NCBI GenBank assembly: GCA_022710975.1
Contig: JAKLGA010000017.1
Location: 62,001 to 126,000 of the forward strand
Source: Myxococcota bacterium
GTDB lineage: Bacteria; Myxococcota; B64-G9
Length of the DNA stretch: 64,000 nucleotides
Reading direction: 5' to 3'
The notes beneath the pieces were generated by a model. It worked only from the letters and a program-made list of their open reading frames with translations, was not told the DNA's origin and made no database searches. Positions 31,642 through 40,395 of the stretch are shown in pieces. The translations under genes and the position numbers were made by a program. Position 1 is the first letter of the stretch. Each line of letters begins with the position of its first letter.

Positions 31642-32862
31642 ATGTGCGCCCCGGCCAGCTCGAGCTCCACGACCGCGCTCCGGCGCCCAGGATGGAGCCC
31701 GCGCCGCGGGCTGTCAACCGCGGCGCTGACGCTCCTGGTCCTGGGGCTCGCTGGCGCCGCCCAGGCCGCGCCTGCCCGGCGGGCGCCCGCCGCGGCGCAG
31801 AAGCCGCTGGTGGCGGTGCTGCCGCCCAAGGCCCTGGGCGTCGAGAAGCCCGTGGCCGCGCAGGTGCAGGCCGGGCTGATCCAGGCCGTCAAGGGCAGGG
31901 GCCGCTTCCGCGTGCTGTCCGCCCAGGCCATCCAGAAGGCGCTCGATCGGCAACCGGCCGGCGCCAAGGCCGCGGTCGAGTCCCTGGTGCCCGCGCTGCG
32001 CTCCCGCTGGGCGCTGTCCGGCACCCTGGCCGGGCTGGGCGAGGCCCTCAGCCTGGATCTCAAGCTGCTCGAGGGCAGCACGGGCGCCGAGGTGCGCCGG
32101 GCCTCGGTCGAGCTGCCGGCTGACGCCAAGGCCCGCGCGGCCGCGCTGGAGGAGCTGGTCATCCGGCTGCTCGAGCCGGAGCGCTGGGTGGGCAGTCTGC
32201 AGCTCGAGGTGAGCGAGGCCGGGGCCCAGGTGTGGCTGGACGGGGTCCAGGTGGCCAGCACCCCGCTCGCCGCCCCGCTGACCGGGCTCGCGCCGGGCAA
32301 ACACATCCTCATGATCCGCAAGGAGGGCCAGGCCGAGTTCTCCAAGTTCGTGGTGGTGCGCTTCGATCAGGTGGCCCAGCTCAAGGTGGACCTCGACAGC
32401 GCCACCGTGGTCGGGCTGCTGTACGACAAGCGCCCGGCCGAGCCGCGGCCCAGGCCGGCCCCCCCGCGGCCCGCGCTGCTGGCGGCGGCGCCGGCGCCCG
32501 AGCCCGGCATGGGCTGGCAGGGGACGACCGGCTGGAGCCTGCTGTCGGTGGGCGCGGCCGGCGCGGTGGCGGGCGGGCTGCTGGCCTGGCACGTGGAGGA
32601 TCTCGAGCGGCAGATCGCGGATCGGCCGTGGAGCGCGGACGACGAGGACGAGCTGGCCGACGCCCTGGCCGAGGGGCGCCAGCTCCGGCGGGTGTCCACC
32701 GGCCTGTGGATCGCCGGCTCCGGCCTGGTGCTGGTCGGCGGGGCCTTCCTGCTCTGGGAGCTGCTCGGCGCGCGGGCCGACGAGCCCAGCGGGCAGGGCC
32801 TGGTGGTCGCTCCGGCCGCCGGGCAGGGCGGCGCCGGACTGCTACTCCTGGGGAGCTTCTGA
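31642..32862 (+). CDS. exported PEGA-domain protein with two C-terminal membrane helices
   Basis: A 406-residue protein. After an Arg-containing N-terminus comes a signal helix (about 25-42). Residues about 55-165 resemble the FlgO/TolB-N-like fold (KPLVAVLPPKALGVEK, GRFRVLSAQAIQKALDRQ, RWALSGTLAGLGEALSLDLKLLE), used for sensing or scaffolding. Then a PEGA unit: LQLEVSEAGAQVWLDGVQVASTPL, GLAPGKHILMIRKEG. Two hydrophobic helices (WSLLSVGAAGAVAGGLLAW and STGLWIAGSGLVLVGGAFLLWELL) follow a Pro-rich linker. Family members are common in myxobacteria and lack an agreed function. Its last 21 bases overlap the end of the convergent 1018-residue gene. Confidence 0.72.
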   Translation: MCAPASSSSTTALRRPGWSPRRGLSTAALTLLVLGLAGAAQAAPARRAPAAAQKPLVAVLPPKALGVEKPVAAQVQAGLIQAVKGRGRFRVLSAQAIQKALDRQPAGAKAAVESLVPALRSRWALSGTLAGLGEALSLDLKLLEGSTGAEVRRASVELPADAKARAAALEELVIRLLEPERWVGSLQLEVSEAGAQVWLDGVQVASTPLAAPLTGLAPGKHILMIRKEGQAEFSKFVVVRFDQVAQLKVDLDSATVVGLLYDKRPAEPRPRPAPPRPALLAAAPAPEPGMGWQGTTGWSLLSVGAAGAVAGGLLAWHVEDLERQIADRPWSADDEDELADALAEGRQLRRVSTGLWIAGSGLVLVGGAFLLWELLGARADEPSGQGLVVAPAAGQGGAGLLLLGSF

Positions 32863-35800
32863 ACCCAGCTCCGGGAGCCCCTCCAGGCGGCGGTCCGCCT
32901 GAGGGCGCAGCGCCTCGACCCAGCGCTCAAGGCAGTGCTTGGCCAGCAGCCGCATGAACGGGCTGTCGGGTCTCAGGATCTCGTACACGTAGGTCGGCTG
33001 GGTGACCTCGAAGCCGCGGAACAACACCTGGCCGACGTAGCGGAACACGTCCACCTCGGTGCCGAGCACCGGCCCAGCGTGGGCGGGCACGCCCAGGACC
33101 AGGGTGAGGACCTCGTCGGGGAAGTAGAAGCGGGCCAGGATCTCGGGGCCCAGCTCGGCCGGCCGCACCTGGAGCCGGTAGAAACTATGGGTCCCGCGGC
33201 ACTGGCGGATGTAGGCATCCAGCGCGGCCGCGCTCAGGGCCTCGCCCAGGTTGTAGATGTCGGCCCCCCCGCCCGCGCCCTCGCCAGGCTCCGGCGCGGA
33301 TCGGGCCAGCTCCTGGGGGATGCTGCGGGCGAGCTCCTCGGCCAGCCTGGCCTGCCGGGCGGGGTCGCCCTCGGCCTGCGCGGCCTGCCACAGGCGCAGC
33401 AGGCGGGGCGGCAGGCCAGTCGCGCGGGTCTGGCTGATCAGCACCCCGAACGGGAGCTCCAGGCCGGGCTGGCCGCGGCTGGCGCTGGCCTCGGCCAGCA
33501 GCTCGTCGAAGCGGCGCCTGACCTGGGCGTTCCGCGCGGTGCCGCGGGCCGCCTCGTTGATGCGCTCGGAGATGGCCACGCGCTGCTCCCCCCACTCGTG
33601 GTTGGACAGCTGCAGCACCTCGGCCGCCGAGCCGTAGGAGATGAACAGGCCAGCCTCCAGGCCCGCGCCTTGGCGCTGGCGCTCCTCCTCCAGGGCGTCC
33701 TCCAGGCCCCGCTCCTCCTCGTCGATGGCCCGCAGCCGGCCCTCGAGCTCGCGCACCCGCTCGAGCAGCCCCTGGCACAGGTAGTCGCCCAGCCTGCAGG
33801 TCAGCTCCTCGCCCCGCAGGGGCTTCAGGCTCTCCAGCATCTGGGACCTGTGCTCCTTGAGCCGGGCGTGGGCCTGGCGGATGCTCTCCAGGCGCGTGGC
33901 CAGCTCCGCCCGCTGGGGGGCCTCCGCCAGGAGCTGCTCGCGTGATTGCAGGTTGCGGTAGGTCTGCTGGACACGGGCGAAGCGCTCGTCGAAGTCCTCC
34001 CGGAGCTGGGCCACCATGGCCTCCGGCCCCAGGCCGCTCCTGCGGAAGACCTCGCGCTTGAGCTTCTGCAGCTCCTTGGAGAGCTTCTCGCGCTCGCCCC
34101 GCAGCGCTTCGCGGGCGAGCTCGAGGCGCCTGGCCGCCGCCCCCAGCGCGCGCGCGTCGCTCTCCGGGGCGAGTTCCTGGAGCCGCCGGCGGTAGTTGCG
34201 GAAGATGGCCTGGATGTCGCGCGCCAGCCCCACCAGGCTGACGATGTTGCCCGAGAAGGCCACCGCGTCTCCCAGCAGGTTGACGAGCTGGATGTTCTGC
34301 TCCCGGCTGACCAGATCGGCGCCGGTGCGGTAGTGGGCGGCCGCCTCCAGGATGGGCTCGTAGAACTCGCGCCCGAGGAACTCCGCCATGACCAGCTCCT
34401 TGGCCCTGGCGGTGCGGCGCGTGTAGCCCTTGAGATCCACGAACAGCTGGCCCTCCTGCTGCGACGTCCGCCGGCGCAGCATGGGTAGCTCGTCGCAGGC
34501 CAGGCGGTACAGGCGCCCGCTCTCGAACTCCAGCCGGAGCGCGGCCCCGCTGGCCAGCGCCCGCCGGTCCAGCAGCCTCAGGAGCACCGGCGCCAGCTGG
34601 GCGTGGACGAACTCGTCCATGTGCTGCAGCAGGAACCGCTCGATCAGCTCCTGCAAATCGAGCGCGTCCTCGGGGCCTGGCTGCAGCCAGGGCGGGCCCA
34701 GGTCCCGGGCGCGCGTCAGCGTGGCCTGCAGGCGCTCGAGCTCCTGCTTGGGTGTCCCACGCTGCAGGCTGGCGGCGCGCTCTCCCAGATCGGCGGCCAG
34801 CCCGGCCAGCACCGCGGGCTGCTCCAGGATGGCCAGCAGGGCCTGGTCGCTGGAGAAGGCAGCGGCCAGGCGGCGGTCGGCCTCGCGGGCGGGGTCCTCG
34901 CGGGCCAGCAGGTGATCCAGGATGCGCCGGCGCAGGCCCTCGCAGGCGGCGTGCTGGCTGATCGCGGTCTGCAGCGGTGGCTGGGCCGCGAGCGCCCGCA
35001 GGATCTCTCGTGCCAGGTTGATCGGCCGGTTGTCGCGCTCCAGCGCCGCGCTGTAGAGCGGGTCGAGCAGCTCCTCCGCCCCCTGGGAGAGCCCGTAGGG
35101 GTTGAGGGCGTCGCGCTCGCCCTTGCGGACCGCCACGAACCACAGCGGCGACAGACTCGCGAGCACCACCTCGCGATCGCGGCGCTCCGGGCCCCCGATC
35201 GGCAGGCCCCCCTGGCTGACGAGCGCGTCCTCGCAGGCCTGGCGGAAGGCGGCGTACAGCGTCATGCCCACCGCCCGCTCGAGGCGCGCGTAGGGCAGGC
35301 CGCGGATCTGCACCTGCTTGGCGCCCTCCTTGAGCCGGATCAGCGTCTGCAGCCCCGCCAGGTAGACCATCAGCCCCAGCCCGGAGGCGTCCGGGTGCTC
35401 CCGCCCGAGGCGGATCGCGCGCGTGAGGATGCGGGTGAGCTGCTCGACCAGCGCGCGTCCGCCCGCCTGGCGGGACAGCCAGCTCTCCAGCAGGCCGGCG
35501 TCCAGATCCGGGCTGCGCAGGAGCGCCCGCTTGATCAGCGGACGCCAGGGCCCGTCCTCGGGCAGGCTGCGCGGGCAGACCCGGCGAGGCCAGAGCACCA
35601 CGCGCTGGCGCTCATCGGCCAGCAGGGCGGTCTGCTGCTGACGATCGTACTCGGGCTCGGCCCGCCGCCGCAGCAGGTCGAGCAGCTGCTCGAGGGCGCG
35701 CTGCAGCGCGCGCTGGGCCTCGTCGGAGAAGGAGTAGGGCACCGTGCGATCGAGATCGGACTCGCCCAGGGTCAGCGGCAGGCGCCGCAAGAAGTCGGTC

Positions 35801-35898
35801 CAGGGGGCCCCCTTGGCCGCCAGCGCCTCCACCAGGGCGTGCTGGGCCAGCAGCCGCGGGTGGCGGAGCGCGAAGCTGGGCAGCTCGAGGGTGGGCAT
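32842..35898 (-). CDS. 1018-residue protein with a class III cyclase-like domain interrupted by a coiled coil
   Basis: A large cytoplasmic protein, mostly helical. The middle reads as a nucleotidyl-cyclase (class III) core: QLFVDLKGYT with D488, AEFLGREFYEPIL, NLLGDAVAFSG with D544 (the two metal aspartates), and, after a long gap, GLFISYGSAAEVLQL and RINEAARG with N781 and R785, the spacing of the catalytic Asn and Arg of adenylyl cyclases. Between the second Asp and the GLFISYG strand are about 200 residues instead of roughly 50; the extra 150 or so (KLSKELQKLKREVF, ELATRLESIRQAHARLKEHR, LLERVRELEGRLRAI) form coiled coil. The N-terminal 450 residues and C-terminal 170 are unrecognised. Cyclase activity is an inference. 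Start ATG 35898 after AAGGT. Confidence 0.6.
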   Translation of the reverse strand: MPTLELPSFALRHPRLLAQHALVEALAAKGAPWTDFLRRLPLTLGESDLDRTVPYSFSDEAQRALQRALEQLLDLLRRRAEPEYDRQQQTALLADERQRVVLWPRRVCPRSLPEDGPWRPLIKRALLRSPDLDAGLLESWLSRQAGGRALVEQLTRILTRAIRLGREHPDASGLGLMVYLAGLQTLIRLKEGAKQVQIRGLPYARLERAVGMTLYAAFRQACEDALVSQGGLPIGGPERRDREVVLASLSPLWFVAVRKGERDALNPYGLSQGAEELLDPLYSAALERDNRPINLAREILRALAAQPPLQTAISQHAACEGLRRRILDHLLAREDPAREADRRLAAAFSSDQALLAILEQPAVLAGLAADLGERAASLQRGTPKQELERLQATLTRARDLGPPWLQPGPEDALDLQELIERFLLQHMDEFVHAQLAPVLLRLLDRRALASGAALRLEFESGRLYRLACDELPMLRRRTSQQEGQLFVDLKGYTRRTARAKELVMAEFLGREFYEPILEAAAHYRTGADLVSREQNIQLVNLLGDAVAFSGNIVSLVGLARDIQAIFRNYRRRLQELAPESDARALGAAARRLELAREALRGEREKLSKELQKLKREVFRRSGLGPEAMVAQLREDFDERFARVQQTYRNLQSREQLLAEAPQRAELATRLESIRQAHARLKEHRSQMLESLKPLRGEELTCRLGDYLCQGLLERVRELEGRLRAIDEEERGLEDALEEERQRQGAGLEAGLFISYGSAAEVLQLSNHEWGEQRVAISERINEAARGTARNAQVRRRFDELLAEASASRGQPGLELPFGVLISQTRATGLPPRLLRLWQAAQAEGDPARQARLAEELARSIPQELARSAPEPGEGAGGGADIYNLGEALSAAALDAYIRQCRGTHSFYRLQVRPAELGPEILARFYFPDEVLTLVLGVPAHAGPVLGTEVDVFRYVGQVLFRGFEVTQPTYVYEILRPDSPFMRLLAKHCLERWVEALRPQADRRLEGLPELGSEAPQE

Positions 35899-35910: not shown

Positions 35911-37551
35911 CTAGCGGCTGGCGAACACCAGCGCGATCCAGAGCTCGCCGGTGCTGGCGAACTCGGGCGTGCGGGCCACTCCCACCCCCAGCCGGTTGAT
36001 GGCCTCGTCCAGGACCTCGGGCGCGTGCAGCACGTGGGCAGGGTTGGAGGTGCGGAAGTAGCGCACCTGGGCCCCGACGATCCCCAGGCCCTCCTCGCCC
36101 AGCTCCTCGAGCAGCCAGGCGCCCTCCTCCTGGGGATCGGGCTTGTGGCCCATGGCCCCCAGTCGGCGGGCCGAGTGCAGCGCCGCGCGGCTGAGCTGCT
36201 CGTCCAGGCCGAGCGCGAAACGCCCGCGCGCCTTGCGCCGGGCGTTGACCAGCTCCAGCACCCTGCGCGCCATGGCGGCCCCGGTGCCAGACTCCACCGG
36301 CTCGACCAGCACCTCGCACACGGCCACGATGTCCTCGGCCGCTCCGCGCTCCATGGCCACGCCGACGCCCACCTGGGTCACGTCGGGATCCACCAGGTTG
36401 ATGCGGTGGCCCGGGCTGTCGACGAAGCGGTCGTGGGCCGCCTCCGGGCTGGGGGTCAGGGCCACGTTCTCCAGCGCCCGGGCGAAGGGCAGGCCCGCGC
36501 GGCTCAGGCGGTCCACCAGGGTCCCGCTGGCCTTGGTGCGGTGCACGGCGTGGCGCTCGAGCAAGAGCTGCATGGCGTGCTCGCGGGCGATCTCGGACAG
36601 GCGCGTGGAGAACGTCAGCGCCGGGAGCTTCTGCCTGGTGCGCAGCTGGTTGAGCAGCCCGAACAGCGCCTGCTCGGCGTCCTCCGGGGTCTTGTAGCGC
36701 TCCGGCGTCGGCCGCAGCTTGACCCGCGGCAGGCGCGCCCGGGGCACGCCGGCGAACAGCGGGAACAGGGCGGCCACCTCGGGGCCGGCCTGGCCCAGCA
36801 CGACCAGCTCGAGGGAGTACTCGCCGCGGCCCCCGTCCAGCGGGACCTCGCCGCGCCAGGCGCCCTCCTCGTACAGCAGCACGCCGGACTGGACGTCGCC
36901 CGCGGGCGTGGTCATCAGCCAGCGCGGATGGTTGTTGCCGCGTAGCAGCTGGGCGCGCAGCGGCACCCGCGAGCCAGGCGGCGGGCACACCGGGACCGGA
37001 TCCACCAGGGCCGGCCGCCGACCGAGCAGCAAGGTGGTCACCATGCGCTGCTGGTCGGGCTGGCGGGCCGCCCCGACCGCGAAGTGGGTGTAGCGTCCGC
37101 GCCTGGCCTGCTCGTCCAGGAAGGCGACCAGCCCCTCGGGCACCGTCTCCACCGGGCCCATGGCCGAGAAGGGCAGCACGGCCCAGTCGGTCACCCCGCG
37201 CTGCTGCAGCTCGAAGCGGATGCGATCGAGAGGCAGCGCGCGCTCCTCGCTCGGGCCGGCCTCCAGCAGGTGGCCGCTCCAGGCGCGGGCGGAGGCCGCG
37301 TAGCGCTCGTCCCACAGCAGCCGGTGCTGGTTGGTGCGACACCAGCCGATCACCGCCGCGATGAGGATGTTCTCGTCCGGGTTGGACAGGAACTTGGCCT
37401 CCTCGTGGTAGCGGTCGGTGCACGCGGCCTCGCCGGCCGGCGCGGCGGGCTGGGCCCAGGCCGGCGCCGCGCCCGCCAGGGCCAGCGCGGCCAGCCAGGC
37501 GAGCGGACGGCGGGTGCCAGGCGTGTCGGACGGGCGGCGCGCCATGGACAT
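35911..37551 (-). CDS. exported protein with one clear and two possible CAP (SCP/PR-1) domains
   Basis: A 546-residue protein; signal peptide cut near residue 34 (PAWAQP). A clear CAP domain lies at about 290-400: LFGLLNQLRTRQKLPALTFSTRLSEIAREHAMQLL, ALENVALTPSPEAAHDRFVDSPGHRINLVDPDVTQVGVGVA, which holds the family's GHR-N motif. The region before (RLLWDERYAASARAWSGHLLEA) and the C-terminal one (VLELVNARRKARGRFALGLDEQLSRAALHSARRLG, INRLGVGVARTPEFASTGE) repeat the same plan in weaker form, while residues about 190-280 form a beta domain. Bacterial CAP proteins have varied, mostly unknown extracellular roles. The ATG follows two bases after the stop of the HAD lipoprotein gene. Confidence 0.75.
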   Translation of the reverse strand: MSMARRPSDTPGTRRPLAWLAALALAGAAPAWAQPAAPAGEAACTDRYHEEAKFLSNPDENILIAAVIGWCRTNQHRLLWDERYAASARAWSGHLLEAGPSEERALPLDRIRFELQQRGVTDWAVLPFSAMGPVETVPEGLVAFLDEQARRGRYTHFAVGAARQPDQQRMVTTLLLGRRPALVDPVPVCPPPGSRVPLRAQLLRGNNHPRWLMTTPAGDVQSGVLLYEEGAWRGEVPLDGGRGEYSLELVVLGQAGPEVAALFPLFAGVPRARLPRVKLRPTPERYKTPEDAEQALFGLLNQLRTRQKLPALTFSTRLSEIAREHAMQLLLERHAVHRTKASGTLVDRLSRAGLPFARALENVALTPSPEAAHDRFVDSPGHRINLVDPDVTQVGVGVAMERGAAEDIVAVCEVLVEPVESGTGAAMARRVLELVNARRKARGRFALGLDEQLSRAALHSARRLGAMGHKPDPQEEGAWLLEELGEEGLGIVGAQVRYFRTSNPAHVLHAPEVLDEAINRLGVGVARTPEFASTGELWIALVFASR

Positions 37552-37553
37552 GG

Positions 37554-38615
37554 TCACTGCTTCTGCACGGGGAAGTCGGGCTGCAGCCACCAGCCGCCCT
37601 CGGCCGCCTTGCGCTTGAGATCCTCGTAGCCGCGATCGAGCAGCAGGGCGTGCTCGGCGTGGCCTAGCATCTCCGCGTCGGTCCAGGAGTCGCCCACGGC
37701 CAGCACCGGCCGGCGGCCGATGAACTGCTCGACGGCCTGCACCTTGCCCTGGCGGAAGGTGGGCGGGGGCTCCATCTCGGTGCTCAGCTTGCCATCCACC
37801 AGCTTGGTACGCATGCCCAGCACCCGGAACCCCTTGATGGGGAACGACTGGGCGGCGCCGGCCACGACCCACTGGGGACCGGCGGACACGATCCACAGCT
37901 CGAAGCCCGCCTGGCGGAGCACCAGCATCAGGTCCAGCATGGGCTTGTGGATGCGGATGCCGGTGGCGGTGATGGCCGGGGCCGTGTCGTCTTCCCCGGC
38001 GCGGATGGGCTCGGAGCCCAGCGGCCGGCCCAGCTCGAAGGTCATGACCTCGTGCGCCATGGCCTCCAGCTCGTCCGGGGTGTAGCCCGCGTAGAAGCGC
38101 ACCTGCCAGGGGTAGCAGGTCTCGGGCTCGAGCTCGTTGCACAGGCCCCAGTAGGCCTGGTGCATCAGCTTGCGGAAGCGCTGCAGCTCGACGCTGCCCG
38201 CCTGCTTGTCGCTCGGCAGGGCCACAGTGGCCTCCCAGGCGGCGCGGATGTCGGCGCGCTTCTCCGCGGGCAGCGCCTCCCAGACCGGCTCGCGGAACTG
38301 GAACTTCCGCTCGCGGATCATGAAGTCGTAGAAGGCCCGGCCGATGTCGCCCCGGATGCAGGTGTTATCGAAGTCGAACACCACCACCGGCTTCTTGTCC
38401 GGGTCGTACCCGGCCGAGCCCTTGCCCCGCTCGGCGGCCAGCTTCTCCAGGGAGGCCTTCACCCCGGGCTCCCACTCCGCGCCCAGGGTCGCCGGGGGCT
38501 TGGCCTCCGCCGCGGGCTTGGCCGCGGGGCTGCTCTTGCAGCCCATGGCCCCCAGGGCGAACAGGCACATGGAGACGACGAACAGGCCGAAGGCCAGGGA
38601 CCGCTTGATAGACAT
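37554..38615 (-). CDS. HAD-family phosphatase lipoprotein
   Basis: A 353-residue lipoprotein: signal peptide with lipobox LGAMGC, then a HAD hydrolase. Motif I VVVFDFDNTCIRGD, motif II LWIVSAGPQWVV, a Lys in FRQGKVQAVEQF, and motif IV VLAVGDSWTDAEML are complete, so it should be an active phosphatase exposed on the outer or inner membrane. A large cap domain lies between motifs I and II. It resembles periplasmic phosphorylcholine/ethanolamine-type HAD phosphatases, but the substrate is unproven. ATG at 38615 after GGAGGGTG. It forms an operon with the CAP protein and possibly the cyclase-like protein downstream. Confidence 0.8.
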   Translation of the reverse strand: MSIKRSLAFGLFVVSMCLFALGAMGCKSSPAAKPAAEAKPPATLGAEWEPGVKASLEKLAAERGKGSAGYDPDKKPVVVFDFDNTCIRGDIGRAFYDFMIRERKFQFREPVWEALPAEKRADIRAAWEATVALPSDKQAGSVELQRFRKLMHQAYWGLCNELEPETCYPWQVRFYAGYTPDELEAMAHEVMTFELGRPLGSEPIRAGEDDTAPAITATGIRIHKPMLDLMLVLRQAGFELWIVSAGPQWVVAGAAQSFPIKGFRVLGMRTKLVDGKLSTEMEPPPTFRQGKVQAVEQFIGRRPVLAVGDSWTDAEMLGHAEHALLLDRGYEDLKRKAAEGGWWLQPDFPVQKQ

Positions 38616-38643
38616 TTTCACCCTCCGCGAAGAACTTGGCCCG

Positions 38644-38672
38644 AGCTTAGCCAAGGACCCCCCGGAACGCAA
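38644..38672 (-). promoter_or_regulatory. promoter of the HAD lipoprotein operon
   Basis: Minus strand: TTGCGT (38672-38667), 17-base spacer, TAAGCT (38649-38644), leader of about 28 bases with GGAGGGTG. Confidence 0.5.
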
Positions 38673-38697
38673 CCCGGGCGGTCCGCGGCCCGCGGGC

Positions 38698-38727
38698 TTG
38701 TCTCGGACCGGCCGGGGGTGGCAGCAT
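38698..38727 (+). promoter_or_regulatory. leaderless-type promoter of the 38.7 kb lipoprotein gene
   Basis: TTGTCT (38698-38703), 18-base spacer, CAGCAT (38722-38727), then GGGTCC and ATG. The layout and the AGCATGGG core are almost the same as in the promoter at 31606-31635. Confidence 0.4.
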
Positions 38728-38733
38728 GGGTCC

Positions 38734-40395
38734 ATGCGAACGCGCGCCATCCTCGGGTGGGGTCCGGCCGGGCTGCTCCTCGTACTCGCGCTGATCGCCT
38801 GCGACGGGGGCGGGGGAGGGGGGCTCTACCAGTACGACTGGCAGGCGCTCATCCCCGGGCCCGGGGAGACGGGCCACGACGCCGAGCTCGAGGCCGTGGC
38901 GCGCCAGCGCGATCGCCAGTTCCACGTGTTCCACACCCTGCCCACCGGGCTCAGCACCGAGGTCGCGGTGGCCCGGGAGAAGACCGCGGCGCGCGCGGCC
39001 ATCGAGCGCTTCCTGCGCGAGGAGGACGGCTGGGACTTCGAGGCCTCCTCGGGCATGCGGGTGGAGGAGGCCATCGACTCCTGGTCCAAGGTGGCCGGGG
39101 CCTACGCCGGCGTGGGGGTGGCCGCGGACGCCTTCCGCTACGGGACGCTGCGCGATCAGCGCTACCCGGCCGAGGAGGTGGAGCGCGCCCGGGACCAGCT
39201 CGTCCTGTCCATCCAGGGCCTGCACCGGGCGGTGACCCTGACCGGCGCGCACGGGGTGATCGCCCGCGGGTATGCCAACCGCGACTTCGCAGGTGCCGGC
39301 CAGGACGTCGTCACCACTCCGCTGTTCGACGGCCTGGGCAACCCCCTGCCCGCGGAGAAGACCAACGGGACCTGGCGCGAGGACAACTCCGGGCTCCTGC
39401 CGGACTACGTGTGGGAGGACTCCTGCAGCCGGGACATGCTGATCGGCTGGGCCACCGGCGTGGGCGCCGTCTGGGAGGTGGCCTGGCAGGACGACACCAT
39501 CCCGGCGGAGCTCAAGGCCGCCCTGCGCGAGGACGCGCGCGCCATGCTGGCCGAGTACCGCGTGGTGCGAGCCACCGGCTACGACCTCGAGATCCCCGAC
39601 GCGGACGGGCGCACCACCTACCACGGCTACCTGAACGAGAACAACATCGACCGGGCCTACATCGACGGCGCCCAGGACGGTTTCTACGCCATCATGACGC
39701 TCGGCATCGTGCCCGCCCTGGCCGCGGTGGCCGAGGACCCCGAGGCCGATGCCTGGCTGGGGACGCTGCTGGGCGCGCGGGATCTGCCGCACCTCGCCCG
39801 GGACCACATGATGATGATCAGCATGGACGAGCTGTCGAACTTCTCCAACTACAACATGTCCTTCTCGGGCGCCTGGCTGGCGCTGCGGCACCTGACCCAG
39901 GACCAGGCGCGCGCGGACGTGCGCGCGGCGCTGGCGAGCCGGCTGTTCGACGAGCCGGGCCGCCGCTTCAAGCCGGTCGAGTTCAGCCAGTCCTTCTTCG
40001 ACTTCACCGCCGTGCTGGGCGCCTGCGACGCCAGCGCCAGGTGGGGCTGCCGCAGCGAGCCCGACCCGGCCCTGCTCGCGCGCGGGCTCGAGACCCTGCG
40101 CGAGTTCCCGGCCCCGCCCTTCTGGGAGTTCAGCGTCGAGAACTGCGACGCCGCGGAGGTGGCCTCGCGCGACTGCACGGCCCTCGACGGCAGCCACCTG
40201 ACGGTGCTGGGCGAGGTCGGCCGGAACGGCGACCTGATCACCGCCGAGCCCCTGCCCATGGCCATCCGCTCCGCTTCGAACTACTACTGGCGCTCGAACC
40301 CCTACGTGCCCAACGGGGGGGCGGACGGGCCGGGCATGTACCCGGGGCCTGACTTCCGCTTCGCCTACTGGCTGGGGCGCTGGGCGCGCCGGTAG
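38734..40395 (+). CDS. large lipoprotein of unknown function
   Basis: A 553-residue lipoprotein: signal peptide with LALIAC lipobox, then a Gly-rich spacer and a helical domain. Visible are HDAELEAVARQRDRQFHVF, a region around WREDNSGLLPDYVWEDSCSRDMLIGWATGVG, many aromatic and acidic residues (YHGYLNENNIDRAYIDGAQDGFYAIM, SNFSNYNMSFSGAWLALRHL) and a closing ASNYYWRSNPYVPNGG. Repeating helices suggest an alpha/alpha-toroid like those of some surface lipoproteins or glycoside-binding proteins, but I recognise no named family and no catalytic site. Six cysteines in the C-terminal half may form disulfides. Divergent from the HAD lipoprotein operon. Confidence 0.7.
   Translation: MRTRAILGWGPAGLLLVLALIACDGGGGGGLYQYDWQALIPGPGETGHDAELEAVARQRDRQFHVFHTLPTGLSTEVAVAREKTAARAAIERFLREEDGWDFEASSGMRVEEAIDSWSKVAGAYAGVGVAADAFRYGTLRDQRYPAEEVERARDQLVLSIQGLHRAVTLTGAHGVIARGYANRDFAGAGQDVVTTPLFDGLGNPLPAEKTNGTWREDNSGLLPDYVWEDSCSRDMLIGWATGVGAVWEVAWQDDTIPAELKAALREDARAMLAEYRVVRATGYDLEIPDADGRTTYHGYLNENNIDRAYIDGAQDGFYAIMTLGIVPALAAVAEDPEADAWLGTLLGARDLPHLARDHMMMISMDELSNFSNYNMSFSGAWLALRHLTQDQARADVRAALASRLFDEPGRRFKPVEFSQSFFDFTAVLGACDASARWGCRSEPDPALLARGLETLREFPAPPFWEFSVENCDAAEVASRDCTALDGSHLTVLGEVGRNGDLITAEPLPMAIRSASNYYWRSNPYVPNGGADGPGMYPGPDFRFAYWLGRWARR

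Follow-up and report, generated by a model that had tools for sequence, protein, structure and literature searches.

The reverse strand of the window (the whole stretch of 64,000 nucleotides that was analyzed) encodes, at 32842-35898, a protein of 1018 aa that belongs to a real, divergent family of class III cyclase-like proteins, in which a helical arm is built into an established control site. The homology and the fold are well supported, and the activity and mechanism are putative, proposed from sequences and models. The family is distantly related to the enzymes that produce cAMP and cGMP, has not been named so far, and is carried by dozens of related bacteria. Taken as a whole, the evidence is best explained by a class III nucleotide cyclase that is soluble, has diverged very far, and bears a helical arm, a reading to which we give a probability of about 0.7. 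All features of the gene described below are on the reverse strand.

Motifs and distribution of the family

The start codon of the gene is backed by the motif HPRL, which is conserved at the N-termini of relatives, and AAGG sits just 5′ of the ATG. The original prediction placed four catalytic residues in this ORF and all four are confirmed: D488 in FVDLKGYT (starting at residue 486), D544 in LLGDAVAFSG (541), and N781 and R785 in RINEAARG (779). We scanned with a regular expression built from these motifs. Of the 199 reading frames of at least 150 aa in the window, it matched this ORF alone, and of the 4815 ORFs of 100 aa or more at 81 loci, it matched family members only. The motif set exceeds chance.

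In single-sequence searches, the 1018 aa protein found nothing informative in Pfam, NCBIfam, PHROG, PADLOC, or the sequences of the PDB, the sole results being weak coiled-coil matches, and the cyclase models of Pfam and NCBIfam are not reached by any family sequence on its own. Such matches are what a chance motif in an unrelated coiled-coil protein might give. That reading is refuted by the specificity of the regular expression and by the profile comparisons with their controls, the AlphaFold2 model, and the Foldseek searches described below, and we consider its probability negligible.

Searches of related genomes and a GTDB contig set recovered 90 distinct family ORFs, with complete members mostly 830-1090 residues long. 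The hosts are Myxococcota, including Archangium and Anaeromyxobacter, and many MAGs labeled Deltaproteobacteria. Of 195 sampled genomes of the phylum, 60 had a match; the genome that contains the window carries a single copy. Among the papers covered by a literature search, none deals with this cyclase-like family. Three MAG contigs (L066, L098, and L035) carry the gene in split or interrupted form, with a frame change or stop that may stem from sequencing errors.

Overall identity among family members is 25-30%. D488 (34435-34437) is found in 87/87 homologs, D544 (34267-34269) in 85/86, and N781 (33556-33558) and R785 (33544-33546) in 86/87 each; the four are kept jointly in 85/86 scorable homologs. 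The exception (L015:952-3186, genome G031) has lost D544, N781, and R785 and is, from its sequence, a candidate natural pseudo-cyclase. The mean share of the commonest residue is highest in the core segments (0.59-0.65) and lowest in the helical insert (0.36).

Homology to class III cyclases

For comparison, we took 46 ordinary class III cyclases from the same and related genomes. Aligned uncut with hhalign, which gives the unbiased value, the family core profile matched them at a probability of 91.7% (E-value 7.9e−7). With excision points picked after the alignment had been inspected, the probability was 95.6% (E-value 4.3e−9) when the coiled coil was excised and 97.2% (E-value about 4e−11) when both insertions were excised, each of the three E-values being that of a single comparison. 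The controls were below 1%: a reversed profile scored 0.4%, and the GGDEF domains of the same genome scored 0.05%, on which we rejected an identity as a GGDEF diguanylate cyclase. The two metal-binding Asp are found where class III cyclases have them, at the end of beta1 and at the beta2-beta3 turn. The homology of the family to class III cyclases is well supported. The family does not fall in DUF2652 (PF10851), as just one of 17 cores matches that Pfam model, and weakly (E-value 0.027).

The C-terminus alone also matched the class III profile in hhalign (probability 59.6%, E-value 9e−5). The aligned portion includes a terminal hairpin, GxVxF(R/K)GFE...VYE (residues 946-976; 32971-33063), which matches the class III beta7-beta8 hairpin with its "lKG" motif. 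The cyclase domain thus extends to the C-terminus through further insertions. The original prediction overlooked this reach, as well as the Asn540 and the upstream gene in 10 loci that are discussed below. It had also stated that the remaining 600 residues match nothing recognizable. This holds for the N-terminal 450, an all-helical domain (residues 10-450; 34549-35871) that is conserved in the family and is without a match in Pfam or the PDB sequences, but not for the C-terminal hairpin. Between the core and the hairpin is a highly conserved segment, DIYNxGEALSxxALxAY (residues 878-899; 33202-33267), with conservation that matches that of the core. This segment may be beta6-alpha5 or part of a further domain.

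Predicted structure

The AlphaFold2 model of the window protein, made with 67 aligned sequences, has a mean pLDDT of 89.7 and a pTM of 0.76. Its core strands follow the class III order, beta1-alpha-alpha-beta2-beta3-alpha3-(helices)-beta4-beta5-alpha4. The first part of the core (residues 481-576; 34171-34458), delimited by both hhalign and the model, is predicted to consist of beta1 (481-490), alpha1-alpha2 (492-498 and 501-522), the beta2-beta3 hairpin (537-542 and 545-550) with G543-D544 at the turn, and alpha3 (552-576). The second part (residues 747-808; 33475-33660), delimited in the same way, would comprise beta4 (748-757), beta5 (760-766), an extra strand (770-776), and alpha4 (778-786), which bears N781 and R785. 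Two other strands (950-958 and 969-975) are modeled near the C-terminal end.

In a Foldseek search of the PDB, the full model recovered class III cyclases first (probability 1.00, top match 1wc4), with E-values of at least 0.009 because of the insertions, and aligned to Rv1900c at 2.0 Å over 88 columns. We also modeled an insert-free relative (L070; 421 residues, pLDDT 86.7). This model had 63 PDB matches at E-values of 0.001 or lower, and all 50 of the 50 listed are class III cyclases; the best has an E-value of 8.6e−7 and a TM score of 0.56 on the target. A class III catalytic fold for the family is well supported by these models. As the original prediction proposed, the segments on either side of the insert close into a cyclase core in the model rather than failing to form one, and hhalign, AlphaFold2, and Foldseek agree on a class III cyclase-like core that is split by a helical insert.

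The region that follows the core might be understood differently, in that a tandem pseudo-heterodimer would form inside one chain by pairing of the first domain with residues 819-975, taken as a second cyclase-like domain that has degenerated. The predicted C-terminal order of strand-helix-helix-strand-strand-helix-strand (residues 216-376 of the L070 model, about 819-975 of the window protein) resembles the class III signature, the conserved YNxGEALS resembles NLLGDAxxFS, and some fold matches cover 370-480 columns of two-domain cyclases. However, those long fold matches have an rmsd of 11-24 Å, profile similarity between the two halves is absent (probability 0.4%), and the C-terminal hairpin matches class III beta7-beta8 while the part preceding it matches nothing. 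We regard the tandem arrangement as very improbable and favor one cyclase domain with several insertions.

Departures from the ordinary active site

The substrate-selecting Lys of class III cyclases, four residues before the second Asp, is found in 43/46 of the ordinary cyclases, whereas in the family this position is Asn in 82/86 members (Asn540 of the window protein; 34279-34281). Judged from the sequences, these members would have neither the Lys that indicates ATP nor the Glu that indicates GTP before the GD motif. Established class III cyclases differ in the residue that they have here, and thus Asn540 is an argument against predicting the substrate, not one against placing the family in the class.

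A second departure is found between the conserved Gly770 and alpha4 with N781, where about seven extra residues form the additional predicted strand. The hhalign alignments give two registers in this region, in which the canonical Asn and Arg fall either on N781 and R785 or, six residues earlier, on A775 and K779. The former is favored by the near invariance of both residues, their position on the predicted alpha4 (residues 778-786) immediately after the strand, and some of the hhalign alignments. The proposal that N781 and R785 are, in order, the transition-state Asn and Arg is therefore favored by conservation and by the model but stays tentative, since other hhalign alignments prefer the shifted register.

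These departures raise the possibility that the enzyme keeps the class III fold but catalyzes another reaction or acts on another substrate, with Asn540, K490, R789, N883, and the extra strand fitting the fold to a different nucleotide or product. The near-constant Asn540 is what such a change would predict, as are the family-specific invariants R789 (87/87) and N883 (85/85) together with K490, kept in 79/87. The retained metal and transition-state residues nevertheless fit ordinary cyclization, and established class III cyclases tolerate substitutions at the substrate and transition-state positions (PMC4886424). We consider a changed reaction unlikely, and an ordinary cyclization by a divergent class III cyclase remains the preferred explanation.

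The helical insert

The insert is located exactly in the alpha3-beta4 loop (residues 580-744; 33667-34161), as delimited by alignment, periodicity, and the model. The claim that the strand after the second Asp comes some 200 rather than 50 residues later is borne out, with about 206 residues from D544 to the next core strand vs. 41-55 in insert-free relatives. The estimated length of about 150 residues was too low, as the helical span is about 165. The insert had also been described as a heptad-like coiled coil. It is indeed predicted to be helical, with four helices (580-621, 625-656, 660-691, and 696-744), but across residues 563-745 the hydrophobic periodicity has its maximum at 3.70 (0/500 shuffles were as strong) and not at 3.5. 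Peaks in sub-parts of the arm are between 3.40 and 3.75, and a strict 3.5 periodicity is absent over the whole arm. Thus, "helical hairpin" is a safer name than "coiled coil." From the modeled helix lengths, the four helices would most simply form one long antiparallel hairpin and not a four-helix bundle.

The distance from the GD motif to beta4 is 41-55 residues in 5 members, 83-116 in 61, and 180-208 in 21. We rejected a strict heptad quantization of arm length, as the classes differ by about 30, 54-66, and 94-100 residues. In a tree built without the insert columns, insert-free members occupy four places separated by well-supported branches, and their core is intact. Two of them adjoin close insert-bearing relatives (L069 with L065, and L102 with L099). 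Because the insert-free members stand in four well-separated places, the arm has probably been lost more than once with retention of the core; these members are known from MAG contigs, in any single one of which a mis-assembled deletion is possible, and their reading frames are open.

The history of the arm bears on whether the protein is an enzyme at all. In a pseudo-enzyme, the cyclase fold would be a nucleotide-binding or scaffolding module and the helical arms would be the working part. Sequences that have diverged beyond the family models would agree with this, and the member without D544, N781, and R785 suggests that the fold may outlast these residues. Yet it is the arms that are conserved least and that are missing from four places of the tree, while the four catalytic residues are jointly kept at low overall identity. 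A pseudo-enzyme is, in our estimate, highly unlikely.

Proposed mechanism

In the preferred reading, a divergent class III cyclase, the protein begins with the helical domain of some 450 residues and continues into a single cyclase domain (about 481-976) with several insertions. The largest (580-744) would be an antiparallel helical hairpin that leaves alpha3 and re-enters at beta4. The working form is most likely a head-to-tail dimer, in which D488 and D544 of one chain would bind two metal ions and the triphosphate, while N781 and R785 of the partner chain would stabilize the transition state. We infer that ATP or GTP is converted to a cyclic monophosphate. Because external regulators contact other class III cyclases at the site of the hairpin, the hairpin probably serves to dock a partner or to brace the dimer, and so would set the activity. 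The original prediction suggested that the insert could turn mechanical or oligomeric signals into cyclase activity, a putative role; five relatives have no insert.

Genomic context and significance

A CAP-domain (PF00188) gene with a likely secreted product is upstream of the cyclase-like gene (35911-37551, reverse strand) and ends 12 nt before the cyclase start. A homolog is found immediately upstream and on the same strand in 10/10 loci of the cluster (the window, L025, L026, L027, L028, L029, L035, L039, L040, and L041), three of which carry cyclases only about 30% identical to the window protein. The two genes are probably one operon. Genes near window-type loci include CAP, HAD, PEGA, RluA-like, and SpoU genes. 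The window also has a 683 aa ORF on the forward strand (38344-40392) that is probably a lipoprotein and is without a Pfam match. In another branch (22 loci, including L045, L046, and L047), the cyclase-like gene faces a LarE-like gene, followed downstream by a thiouridylase-like gene, and in 15 loci of this branch a HEAT-repeat-like gene is upstream on the opposite strand; these names were judged by eye. In the neighborhoods compared, no recognizable cyclic nucleotide effector or phosphodiesterase gene adjoins the cyclase-like gene. Cyclic nucleotide signaling is likely to exist in the organism, since its genome has 17 PF00211 matches and 21 cNMP-binding matches.

The switching of class III cyclases is usually studied via end domains or via proteins that dock on the alpha3-beta4 groove. 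The family described here offers natural variants with an alpha3-beta4 arm in three length classes, and with the close pairs that differ in the presence of the arm (L069/L065 and L102/L099), the effect that an internal lever has on a cyclase could be tested directly. The family is also widespread, cyclase-like, and missed by the Pfam and NCBIfam models. More tentatively, this could be a distinct class III family with a helical lever of evolvable length at the regulator site, one that, with Asn in place of Lys, would recognize its substrate differently and perhaps yield another nucleotide product. It may then be an unrecognized signaling branch in Myxococcota and related "deltaproteobacterial" lineages.

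Comparison with known systems

The family shares its fold, strand order, and both metal-binding Asp with the bacterial soluble class III cyclases (Spirulina CyaC, 1wc0-1wc6; Cya2, 2w01; Rv1900c, 1ybt), as well as a C-terminal lKG-like hairpin and, if the preferred register is right, the Asn and Arg of alpha4. Unlike these cyclases, the window protein has an alpha3-beta4 helical insert of ~165 residues, further insertions at 809-945, Asn540 in place of Lys, an extra strand before alpha4, and a 450-residue N-terminal helical domain. DUF2652 proteins (PF10851) are likewise remote class III relatives that are recognized by profiles only (PMC4886424). They average 250 residues and are single-domain, unlike the window family, and their mycobacterial members keep the substrate Lys and are without the Asn, which is the reverse of the window family (PMC4886424).

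Helices at the same alpha3-beta4 place are found in the receptor adenylyl cyclases of trypanosomatids, where they form the Delta-subdomain, which is thought to be allosteric (PMC6027212). The Delta-subdomain is 36 residues long, vs. about 165 here, and consists of two short helices with a small cavity, and the trypanosomatid proteins are eukaryotic membrane receptors whereas the window protein would be soluble. The alpha3-beta4 loop is also part of the dimer control point in mammalian adenylyl cyclase, where Gs-alpha binds in between this loop and the alpha1-alpha2 loop (PMC2576301). By analogy with these systems, the arm may be regulatory. In the mammalian enzyme, a separate protein docks at this site, whereas in the window protein a helical arm is built into it.
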